Positions 24,738 to 31,800 of a stretch of 64,000 nt of DNA are shown piece by piece; position 1 is the first letter of the stretch; each line of letters begins with the position of its first letter. The notes beneath the pieces were generated by a model that saw only the letters and a list, made by a program, of their open reading frames with translations, searched no databases and had not been told where the DNA came from. The position numbers and the translations under genes were made by a program. The DNA comes from Picochlorum sp. 'celeri' (Eukaryota > Chlorophyta > Trebouxiophyceae), in contig JAACMV010000007.1 in the NCBI GenBank assembly GCA_010909725.1, positions 806,001 through 870,000 of the forward strand, read 5' to 3'.

Positions 24738-26859
24738 TCAATTCCCAGACTTATGAAGCGATGATAATATGTCCAAGGCCGATTTGAGAGGAATCCTCAG
24801 ATGCTTTTCTTGCTTCCAACACTCGGTCATGAGGTTTGAGTACTTTTCAAAAGACTGCTCACTGCAAAGGTTTGGATCATGGACAGCCTTCAAACGCTCT
24901 CCGGATTTCACTTTACCAACGATAATCCAAGGGTTTTGATTTCCCCATGGGACTTCGAGGGTAATCAGCTCCCACAGAATTACTCCAAATGAGAACACAT
25001 CACAAGTTATTGATGGTTTCTCTCCATCAAACAACTCGGGTGCCAACCATCTTGGATTCATGGCAGCAACTGAACTGAGATTCATGGATCCATCAATGAT
25101 TCTGGACAAGTTGAAGTCTGAAATCTTTGCGACGTTTTGCTCGTTCAGAAGAATATTTGGGCTTTTGAGGTCTCTATGTACCACAGATCGCATATGCAAG
25201 TACTGGAGTCCTTCTCCAATGTCGAGTGCCTGCAGGTATTCCATTCACAATATGTCAGAGTCAAAGGCAACCCTCTATCATATAGTATTAATATCTCACG
25301 TACAATGCTCAATCTTTCTTTCCAAGTGAAAGGGGTGCCTGTCTCCAAAGTCTTGGCTAGTTTCTGTGCCAAGTTTCCTCTGGGGCAAAGCTCTGTCATG
25401 ATACAAGGAGGAATCTTACTGTAGCCAAGATATTTGACAATATTTGGGTGATCGAGTGCTGCCATAATCTTGACTTCTTTCTCCATCTTCTCGACAATAC
25501 CCTTGGAAGCAGCTGTCATTCCTTCTAAACTGTTCTCCCGGATGGTTTCCTGTTCCAAAAATATCTTGAGAGCAACATCCTTGCCCTTATAGTTCCCTTC
25601 GTATACCTGCACAAAAACAAATGGTATTACTATATATAGCATGTGGATCAAATATCTTTGCAAAAGTACCGCACGTACTCGTCCAAAAGAGCCCTCTCCA
25701 ATCGGCCCTCCAAGTTGGACTTGATGGAAGTCAAATTCGTTTTGACTCAGCTTGCCCTTCTGACCAGCTTGCTTCAGAAGAGAATCGATATGTGATTTGT
25801 ATGGATCAAAGCCGTTCTTTGTGTAGGCACTGTCAAGCACTGCGTTCGGTTGGGAACTGACAGATTTTGAGGCATACCCACCCGATGGTTTTGTGTCCAT
25901 GTCCGAGTTCTTCTTCTTCTTTCGGAGGTGCATCCACACAAAGAGTCCGGCAATGAGTACCAGTGCAACAATGCCGCCCACAACACCACCAACGATAGCC
26001 GCAATATTCGATCCACCGCTCCCACTATCTTCTGTTGTCTCAAATGGATCACCAGTCGACAGATCGCCATTGAATACAATAGAAGTCTCGGGCTCGACCC
26101 ACTTTGTGGAAATGCCATACGGAATGTATGGTTGACAGGTTTCAGAGACATATCCGCCGTTTAAGTTCATTGGAAGCTTTAACGTTCCATCACATGGAAT
26201 ACCATTCGTAGAAGTTGGGTCATTCCGATCCATCGTGCAATCAATGACGTTATACGGTGGATATGGCTCTGTGCAAAAAAGAACATGTTTCAAAATTTTC
26301 TCATCAGGATCACATTCTATCCATGCTTTCTTCCCAGATTCCGCATTGATGAAATCTAAAAATTCATCTCGATCGACTTCGGTCTTTGTTAGTGCAGTCC
26401 CATTGTAGATGCCGAAATCGTATGCAATTTTGTTGAGATTCAAACTTGTGTACAACTTCACAATCAAGTCAAAGTAGTCTGAAACGGACATTCCACTACA
26501 ACTTCCCCTACCAACGTACAAAGTTCTCCATAAGTCTTCGTCATCTCCTGCTGAATTCTGATATATACACTTTAAAGCTTCGAGCGTTCCTCTTGAAACC
26601 TCGTTTCCAACGATCAAACTGGTAGCTTCATAGGAACTCTTGTCCCAGCATCTGTCATTCTTTTTATCCCTGTCGAGTAGTTTGGGATTAATCTCGCTCA
26701 CAGTGAATGCATTCAATACCCTATCGTCTGAGCACACGGAGTCTTTGTAGCATGACGATGGATTCCAGTCCATTTCGAAATTAAATTTCTCAAGTTGTGC
26801 AGGCTGTGGGTCTGGCACTGGCACTGGCTCTGGTTCTGGCACTGGCTCTGGTTCTGGTA

Positions 26860-26935
<76 letters not shown>

Positions 26936-27475
26936 CTCTGGCTCCGGATCGTCAGCACAGCTACCACAGGTAAATGAATGAGTAGCCGATTTACCTACAC
27001 TAGCAGGATGCATCAGTCAAGGCTCCCAAGTATCATCAGAGTAAGCATTCATGTTACATATCCAACTAGGTCACGTACCACCTGGATTGAATCCATTAAT
27101 TGATATCTCTCCGTCCTGAAAATAGTAGCCATCAATTAAAGATGATCACAGTTATCCAAATACAAGCAAAGCAATGACGCGTACTTTCAAGCCCCAAGTG
27201 CAATCATATATGTAATCATCAGATTCAGCTTCGTATGAATAGTAATACGACTTGCCTGCACCCAAGAATCCTGTGCACAAGCTTGAGCACAAGGTGAATG
27301 AACCACTCTCATATGGCCCCAAAATCAGCGTTCCACTCTCATCGCCATACACGTAAACACGTATTCCTCTACGACAATCATTGTTAAAATTAATCCAAAC
27401 ACCATATGCTGCGAGCACTTGTCCAATCTGGCCAAGCAAAAAAGCAACAAGTAAAGTCGTCACGGTGGCCCTCAT
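24738..27475 (-). CDS. Receptor-like kinase with degenerate RNase T2-like ectodomain
   Basis: Proposed exons: 27475-27185, 27115-27079, 26994-25679, 25606-25304 and 25229-24738, joining in frame to 812 residues; introns are 69, 84, 72 and 74 nt. Order: signal peptide ([18 protein letters not shown]), a small Cys-containing domain, a Glu-Pro stalk at about 122-172, an RNase T2-like domain at about 178-360, a membrane helix near 440-462 with KKKK stop-transfer, and a kinase from about 536. The T2 likeness lies in [40 protein letters not shown] and [14 protein letters not shown], but the catalytic His, Glu and His are all replaced. The kinase has [14 protein letters not shown] and [11 protein letters not shown], yet DFG reads DFN. 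It is probably TKL-type. The 72-nt intron has no stop and could be mistaken for coding DNA. Confidence 0.85.
26811..26949 (-). repeat. Hexanucleotide repeat encoding a Glu-Pro stalk
   Basis: About 140 nt of imperfect 6-bp units (GAACCA-like on the minus strand) encoding alternating Glu-Pro with Val-Pro variants. It forms an extended linker in the receptor kinase, between the N-terminal domain and the RNase T2-like domain. Likely length-variable. Confidence 0.92.
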
Positions 27476-28871: not shown

Positions 28872-31800
28872 CTAGTGCCAGGGTGGTCTGCCATCAACCT
28901 GATCTTCGATTTCTTTGTGATACTGTTGAGCATCGAAGCGGCTTCTCGAGATTTTAGCTGGGCTAGAATTTTCAGAATGCTGGAGAGCTCCATCTACCGC
29001 CTCTAAAACTCTGTTGAAACTGCTGTCAGACTTTGTCACTGGGTGCATGTCTTGCTGACGAGCAAACCTGGGAGGAGTTAATGCCTTTTTGATGGTTGAG
29101 AAGAATGATTTCATCGGGGTTATATTTTTTGTCGTCTTTTTATCTACTTGGTTCCCCATAGTTGCATCTGGTTTGGCGGTTGCTGCATTTCTTCCATTCT
29201 CCATGGAGGATTTGGCACTCTGCTCCGAAGGGGCTCTACTCTCTAAAGATCTTACCGCTGCCCGCAGCGCATCGAGCCGCAGTCGTCGTTCCTCTAAATC
29301 ATCTCCTGTATTTACTTTGACAATGGGCGTTTGCTCCCTGTCTCCAGCCTTTCCCCCTGCAGTGTCATCATCCTGGACATGGAGACTGAATGCTGGGTTG
29401 TATACCATTCGAGACTCTGAGTTCAAAGGCGCTGCTGCTTCTGAGTCATACACATGGTTGGTTTCGTTCTGTTCAACACTCTGTGGAGATTCCAAACCCA
29501 GCGACTGAGCACCAGAGTCTGTGTTGCCCATGGCATCATTGCTAGGCCCTCCATTGCTGGGGTCTCTTTGTACACTCGGGGGACCAGACTTGATAAGGTC
29601 GTTGTTGTCTCTATATTCATATGGGTTCTGCTCTTGAATAAACTTAAGGTGTTGCTGGGGGCTCTGCTTTTGCATCTTAATGTACAAGTTCTCCTGGAAA
29701 CCAGAGTTCTGATCACTAGAATTCATGGTGACATCTCCATGCATGTAGCTAACTCGGGCTGAAACTGGTCTGTCGAGTACATTATGATGTCCACTTTGTT
29801 CAGGAATTATAGCATCTTCAAAATTTGTCGCATATTCCTGCGCTTCATGTTGGTCAAAGACAGGGTTGCTGTTCCTGAATGCTCCCTCTGGCTGACAGCC
29901 ATCATAATTGCTTGTCCGGATTCGATCTGTTTTGTCAGAATCGTAGCCAAAACTATATGTGGACATGCCATATTTCTTTCGAAGTCCAAACTCATCAGAG
30001 TCATCCGCTTCGAATGCATGGTTGTTAGATGTCGTAAACTGAGGAGTGGTTTTTGAAGTCGTCCACTGCAAACGCCTTCGAATACAGACAAACAACAAAA
30101 CCAAAAGCGCTGCGCCAGCAATTGATCCAATTACTGCTCCAACAATTACTCCAGCAGAAGTACCACCTGAACTTCCAGAGACCAATGCCTGACCTTCCTC
30201 ACCAAGTACAGTTGGCGACACCAAGCCTTGCTCTGTGACACTTGGGACACACAATTCCGCAGAAAGGCTTCTCAAATAACCGATGCGACAATCTTGGCAG
30301 GATTCCCCCTCGTATCCAGAGGGGCATGAACAGACCCCTGATGCAGGCAAGCACTGTCCCTTGCCACAACCTCCTGGGCAGGGCTTTGATGGCAATCCAC
30401 AGTCCTGAGGGCATGAGCCAGCAGAGACTCCAATTATCTCCCTTTCCCCAACCTCACATATACCATTGCCACACAACCCAATGGTTGAAGACGTCAGGAC
30501 GCTATCAACCTGGAAGTTTTTACTTCCATATTGAGAGGCTGCTTCTGGCAACACTGCTGCATAGTATGCCGAAGAAAATGGCACATCAGAGACTTGGGTA
30601 TCGTCTGGAGCTATTTCAACCTCAACAACAACTGTGGCCGAGTTGATATCCTGTAAAAGGAGCCTGTGATGATACAGCATGCGCCTTTTATTGCTATTTG
30701 GAGCCATTGTGATGCTCCCAATAGATATTCTGGATTGATCAATAGCTGACACGTTTGCCACCTGTTTGAGGTACTCATATATTGATTCATCCTGGATCTC
30801 GTTGCCAGAGATGATATCACCGGGCACTTGCATTTTCACTCCGAGCACAGCAGTGCATGAATTGCCCACACCATTGCAAACACCACATTCATCAATCAAA
30901 CCCGATTCGCAGCAAACGCCATTTGCATCAATGTACTCACAACATGATCCTTGGATATCGATGTATGCAGCCCGTCCTCCACAGACTCCACATGCATCAA
31001 CTGTGGCATTGCAGCAGGATCCGTTTCCATCCAGTGTGGAGCCTTCAGGACAACATGATCCACTCGAGTCTACTACTCCAGACGCACAGCACGCCAACAT
31101 ATTATCCACTATTCCAGTGGCACAGGATACAGGCAGCTCGCAGTTTACGCCACCATATCCATCGTTACATTGGCATTGTCCACCTGTGCATAAACCTCTT
31201 CCTAGACACACCGTTGATTCACAAAACTCGCAAGGCTCGGAATTGCATCCCCGACTGTTCGATGGCCTTGAATTTTGGATACAATCTGTTTCAGGCACTT
31301 GAGTTCCACTCTCGTCGACGCACGACACCTGTCGAGATTGGGTCCCACCTCCACAAGATGCTGAACATTCACTCCATGGGGAGACCATCCACGAATACAC
31401 TTCACAAGGAATTGTATTACATTCTCGCACCAAGGGCTCTTTCTCATCATCTGAACATGCCTGAGAGCCATCGGAGACGCAAAGTGCATCCCTTTCTGAC
31501 ACCCCTGTTCCACACCTTTCACTGCAGGTTTGCCATGGTCCATACCTCCAGTATGGTCCATCACAGGAAACACTACAAAAAATATCGCAAGCACAGCATT
31601 TACGACAGGGAATAATACGATTATAAAACAGACAGGACATACCTGCAAGATTTCGACGAGACGGCCTCCAAGCCACCTGGACATTCTCGTAGCGGAAGCA
31701 AGGAACCCTCCCCATTGGTGCATGTGACTGTCCTTGTGCTCACCCCTTTCCCGCACGTTGCAGAACAATCAGACCACTCACCATACTCCAATCTGTTTTC

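Follow-up and report, generated by a model that had tools for sequence, protein, structure and literature searches.

A receptor-like kinase in the green alga Picochlorum with a catalytically stripped RNase T2 fold as its probable recognition module

The tiny marine green alga Picochlorum encodes a single-pass receptor-like kinase that probably uses a catalytically stripped RNase T2 fold as its extracellular recognition module. The gene lies within the 64,000-nucleotide stretch of DNA that was analysed (the window), where the splice model and its translation give five exons and one protein of 812 amino acids (Table 1). From the N-terminus, the protein consists of a signal peptide, a Cys-rich module, a Glu-Pro stalk, the RNase T2 domain, a membrane helix and a TKL-type kinase. 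This is the layout of a receptor-like kinase, with a signal peptide, an ectodomain, a single membrane helix and a predicted cytoplasmic kinase, the topology being read from hydrophobicity. Judged by sequence comparison and structure modelling, the single gene, the T2 fold, the loss of catalytic residues, the constraint on the protein and the sharing of its module with lipase and PLA2-like proteins can be regarded as established.

Table 1. Positions of the receptor gene and its parts in the window.
Feature	Residues	Position	Strand	Remarks
Whole gene	1-812	24738..27475	-	ATG at 27475, stop ends at 24738; exons 27475-27185, 27115-27079, 26994-25679, 25606-25304, 25229-24738
Introns		27184-27116, 27078-26995, 25678-25607, 25303-25230	-	69, 84, 72 and 74 nt
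Signal peptide	1-22	27410..27475	-	by eye; hydrophobic peak 3-28 in Kyte-Doolittle scan
N-terminal Cys-rich module	~23-124	26951..27409	-	spans introns 1 and 2; own-genome paralog on lipase, E 4.1e-11
Glu-Pro stalk	~125-174	26801..26950	-	array of 6-bp-unit repeats
RNase T2 domain	179-352	26267..26788	-	Pfam PF00445; conserved part reaches about 400
Emptied block I	206-213	26684..26707	-	alignment
Emptied block II	267-275	26498..26524	-	alignment
Family-specific loop	360-379	26186..26245	-	between two conserved Cys; alignment
Transmembrane helix	~440-463	25934..26005	-	hydrophobicity peak 436-468 at 2.75
Protein kinase domain	536-799	24780..25717	-	exons 3-5; Pfam PF07714, E 7.9e-52

The phased diploid genome reported for Picochlorum celeri has two scaffold sets, each of 15, with a total length of 27.43 Mb and 46% G+C (PMC7225527). 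The assembly searched here holds 27,412,692 bases in 30 contigs, with matches mostly paired on paired contigs, and the G+C content of the window runs from 43 to 49% in 2-kb steps. All four introns of the receptor gene have GT..AG borders, and the copy on the second haplotype (L048, contig C24) has the identical set of four introns and an intact frame of 806 residues. For introns 1 and 2, support comes from a relative in the protein database, P0001, which runs intronless through both junctions, and for introns 3 and 4 from the kinase domain of the paralog L024, which is open across both and aligns through them. Exon 3 alone carries the stalk, the T2 domain, the membrane helix, the juxtamembrane part and the kinase P-loop in one open frame, and the continuity from T2 domain to P-loop within one open exon is found in the window, its allele and the relatives P0001 and P0013. 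Since the T2 domain, membrane helix and P-loop lie within one uninterrupted exon, the ectodomain and kinase, as read from the genomic DNA, cannot be separate genes. A sequence-only reading of the window had already spliced five exons into one protein with a T2-like ectodomain and a kinase; its coordinates were exact, the allele and homologs agree with it, and the alternative it had named, two separate genes, is countered by this shared exon.

Near the receptor, also on the minus strand, an open reading frame of 955 residues (28872-31739) contains thrombospondin type 1 domains in two stretches (TSP1_ADAMTS, 65.1 bits), along with weak EGF-like and membrane-helix matches below the cut-off. It is likely, from its predicted domains, to encode another surface protein beside the receptor.

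The assignment of the ectodomain rests on both profile and structure. Pfam PF00445 matches the receptor with 52.2 bits (E 1.1e-13), above the cut-off of 26, while no glycoside hydrolase is listed by Pfam in the receptor at E up to 1. AlphaFold predicted the structure of the T2 domain with a pTM of 0.81, and the significant PDB matches of this model are T2 family proteins without exception, the nucleotide-bound structures 1v9h, 1vd1 and 1vcz being among the best. The proposal of an RNase T2-like ectodomain is upheld by the profile score, the predicted fold and the PDB matches; a fold unrelated to RNase T2, which had been named as the outcome that would count against it, was returned by neither the structure prediction nor the PDB comparison.

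We compared 17 family rows (the window, its allele, the paralogs on C19 and C7 (L008), and P0001-P0013) with L001, the alga's own live RNase T2, which retains the blocks FTIHGLWP and HEWSKHGTC. In the receptor, block I reads FTVSEINP, with the His replaced by Ser209, and block II (HEWxKHGTC) reads TLYVGRGSC, with His replaced by Thr267, Glu by Leu268, Lys by Gly271 and His by Arg272. The exchange of catalytic His, Glu and His for Ser, Leu and Arg, claimed from the sequence at the outset, is confirmed at positions 209, 268 and 272. Block II as then given was correctly described as emptied, but it started one residue early and left the first His of the block unlisted. Across the family, the CAS I His and the CAS II His, Glu and His are kept in 0 of 17 rows of the alignment, the CAS I Trp is lost in all 17, and the CAS II Lys survives in only two; CAS II is also more hydrophobic than in the live enzyme. 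The Cys positions had been said to be kept, and this holds for eight of the ten Cys of L001, which align exactly in every row, but the other two are displaced by a few columns. From these alignments, we strongly predict that the T2 domain of the receptor is unable to cut RNA.

The stripped domain has features of its own. Forty-four alignment columns do not vary among the 17 rows, and the live enzyme departs from 22 of them, by a different residue or by a gap. The charged residues Asp317, Arg318, Asp361 and Asp368 are invariant in the dead family and differ from the live paralog. Three of the 22 columns fall in the loop between two Cys, which reads identically in nine of the 17 rows and deviates most in L008; at the DNA level, the 64-kb window contains the pattern of this loop a single time. 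Comparison of the window allele with the L048 allele (dN and dS by NG86) gave a dN of 0.0051 and dS of 0.0916 for the T2 domain (13 synonymous codon changes) and 0.0023 and 0.0541 for the kinase (9 changes). The low dN relative to dS in these two domains indicates that both halves of the receptor are maintained, and by this measure the T2 domain and kinase are under strong constraint. The signal peptide and N-terminal module together have a dN of 0 and dS of 0.0496 (4 changes). Synonymous changes are few in the membrane and juxtamembrane part (dN 0.0200, dS 0.0264; 2 changes) and in the stalk (dN 0.2903, dS 0.4500; 3 changes), and the claim of constraint therefore excludes both.

The signal peptide (by eye), Glu-Pro stalk, membrane helix and kinase of the sequence-only reading could each be located on the protein. 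Overlooked there was the N-terminal Cys-rich module, a separate unit of ~100 residues that is also carried by L012, a class 3 lipase encoded in this genome, and by lipase-T2 proteins. In profile searches, this module matched nothing in the PDB and nothing of use in Pfam; the P0001 copy was modelled as a seven-strand beta structure with moderate local confidence, the model as a whole being poor. The stalk differs by haplotype, acidic and Glu-Pro in the window versus more basic and rich in Pro, Lys and Ser in L048, with 35 nucleotide differences in 44 codons between almost identical flanking domains; in P0001, it is made of Pro, Ser, Lys and Arg. Directly after the membrane helix follows a basic stop-transfer sequence, LRKKKK.

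The kinase is TKL-like and has all of its catalytic residues: the Gly loop (GEGSFG, from 542), Lys562, Glu592, the HRD Asp (667-669, Asp669) and the DFG Asp (Asp687). The DFG motif itself reads DFN, a variant shared by the paralogs L024, L027 and L029; L031 does not have it. The nearest kinase paralog is L024 (contig C4; allele L023 on C30), which shares 45% identity with the receptor kinase in the genome search and 42% over 274 residues in the alignment. It differs in its ectodomain, which is leucine-rich-repeat-like, with LRR Pfam scores below the cut-off; L024 and its allele thus are an example of a green-algal receptor kinase that contains leucine-rich-repeat-like sequence. Another receptor kinase, L027 (C7, match at 1095412-1096335), has a weak match to a galactose-binding (F5/8 type C-like) ectodomain, again below the cut-off.

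T2 sequences occur at ten places in the assembly, in pairs on paired contigs: the live RNase T2 (C14/C18), a separate degenerate soluble T2 (C21/C1), the receptor (C7/C24), a second dead-family pair with no kinase in its open frame (L008/L007, also C7/C24) and a third dead-family pair (C19/C11). The degenerate homolog (L006 on C21, with its C1 copy) has 251 residues and has lost block II; no membrane helix was found in L006 by eye. On C19, a gene for a PLA2-like domain with dead T2 is open (L050), and the C11 copy (L049) is missing ~1.15 kb that holds the PLA2-like exon, with an overlap of ~5 bp at the junction, and is also frameshifted in T2, a difference from C19 that could be an assembly error.

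Of 705 candidates from the protein database, 13 matched the T2 domain of the window, and later searches added two more (P0001-P0015); all but P0014 carry dead T2. Among these 14, the dead T2 runs into a kinase P-loop in two (P0001 and P0013), is joined to a class 3 lipase in two (P0007 and P0011; Pfam 69.0 and 67.7 bits), to a Cys-rich domain with a PLA2-like HD motif in nine (P0002-P0006, P0008-P0010 and P0012) and to another Cys-rich domain in one (P0015). The name PLA2-like reflects motif resemblance: PF00068 matched two of five pieces, at best with E 0.032, under the cut-off, and a PDB profile search of the domain gave no match. P0003 is a hypothetical protein of Picochlorum sp. BPE23, and the sequences of P0006 and P0008 begin inside the PLA2-like domain. 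Hydrophobic tails, judged by eye, suggest that the lipase and PLA2-like forms are surface-anchored. P0001 is an orthologous receptor reading frame with the full ectodomain (52% identity over 549 residues), while P0013 is a more distant one that keeps T2 and has no N-terminal module; both stop shortly past the P-loop, apparently at an intron, and cover only the start of the kinase. The lipase protein P0007 and the PLA2-like protein P0008 differ in their partner domain but hardly in T2, which suggests that partners of the dead T2 were recently exchanged, unless the short 2.3-kb contig of P0008 is misassembled and its T2/PLA2-like pairing is an assembly join. P0014, a receptor-type reading frame whose ectodomain looks like FAS1, matches P0013 in the membrane and juxtamembrane part but not in the ectodomain, pointing to ectodomain swapping in this kinase lineage.

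Several other readings have to be weighed against a recognition module. The dead T2 domain could be a structural spacer or dimerisation module without a ligand of its own, in which case the N-terminal module or crowding would drive signalling. The stalk that precedes the domain is hypervariable from one haplotype to the other, and the domain occurs with several unrelated partners; both would fit such a role. However, the 44 invariant columns, half of them unlike the live enzyme and some within the Cys-Cys loop, exceed the needs of a spacer, and P0013 keeps T2 though the N-terminal module is missing; we consider this reading unlikely. It is extremely improbable that the gene model is an artefact, or the gene decaying, with an ectodomain and kinase that do not form one working protein. 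While the splice model rests on genomic sequence, the continuous exon, the intact allele with the same introns, the constraint on both parts and the orthologous reading frame of P0001 argue against this.

Two further readings keep the T2 cleft in use. In the first, put forward in the sequence-only reading, the retired cleft would sense RNA or nucleotides outside the cell; this draws on the nuclease fold and on the nucleotide-bound structures among its best matches, but is improbable. Phosphate-binding catalytic residues are gone, which disfavours RNA sensing through the old cleft; four catalytic residues are lost in every family row, along with the CAS I Trp and nearly always the CAS II Lys, CAS II has become more hydrophobic, and fusion to lipases does not suggest RNA. 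This part of the earlier proposal is left unsupported. It is quite improbable that RNase activity gave way to some other enzymatic activity of the domain: the four invariant charged residues unlike the live paralog would be compatible with such a change, but no known catalytic arrangement was recognised.

Kinase and ribonuclease-type domains also occur together in IRE1 and RNase L, where the RNase is an active cytosolic KEN domain, unrelated to T2. With the RNase T2 family (PF00445; RNase NW, LE, MC1 and human RNASET2), the receptor shares the fold and most Cys, but it is without the catalytic residues, has a new conserved loop and is part of a larger surface protein. To our knowledge, few receptor kinases have a retired enzyme on the outside. 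Tobacco CHRK1 is described as a receptor-like kinase whose chitinase-like ectodomain is missing a glutamic acid residue and shows no chitinase activity (PMC10573068; also PMC4707873). Both are thus receptor-like kinases with an enzyme-fold ectodomain missing one or more catalytic residues, and the general kind, a receptor kinase with a dead enzyme as its ectodomain, is therefore already known. The CHRK1 ectodomain is a chitinase rather than an RNase T2, CHRK1 comes from a land plant, and lipase-fused copies, present for the dead T2, are not mentioned for it in the available text; without a class V chitinase ectodomain, the Picochlorum receptor stands outside the CHRK1 family proper. A T2 relative from Calystegia sepium, CalsepRRP (PDB 1jy5), lacks the canonical His and apparently has a role in storage (PMC5598434). 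It has no kinase, and in the alignment only the His is missing from its block I, while Glu, Lys and the second His of block II, all lost in the receptor, are still present. Among titles and abstract openings, from a literature in which few subscription journals were covered, searches for T2 receptor kinases and for Picochlorum receptor-like kinases brought up no receptor with a T2 ectodomain. The earlier statement that no receptor of this design had been described therefore stands for the T2 version, which appears new in these sources, but not for the general kind, already known through CHRK1.

The preferred reading remains a receptor with a recognition module. The presence of the same dead module on lipid-cutting enzymes suggests a recognition device, although module sharing is by itself no proof of binding. 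The dead T2 domain, together with the N-terminal module, would bind an extracellular target that is also addressed by the lipolytic relatives; the lipase fusions lead us to hypothesise that this shared target is a surface lipid, glycan or protein. Binding may then cluster or reorient the receptor, and the TKL-type kinase would relay the signal by phosphorylation. In LysM and lectin receptor kinases, a module of secreted proteins doubles as the receptor ectodomain. The scheme proposed here resembles theirs in that a module is shared between secreted proteins and an ectodomain. Gene editing already exists in P. celeri, as the titles of two papers show (PMC10808502, PMC12301381), and the question is therefore directly testable. 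We tentatively extend the proposal to the RNase T2 fold as a general extracellular recognition module in Picochlorum, serving as receptor sensor and as targeting part of surface-anchored lipase and PLA2-like proteins in a paired sensor/effector system of this unicellular alga, possibly against microbes or for lipid cues. The dead T2 domain with its kinase, lipase or PLA2-like partners would be a natural experiment in how an enzyme fold can turn into a module for binding.
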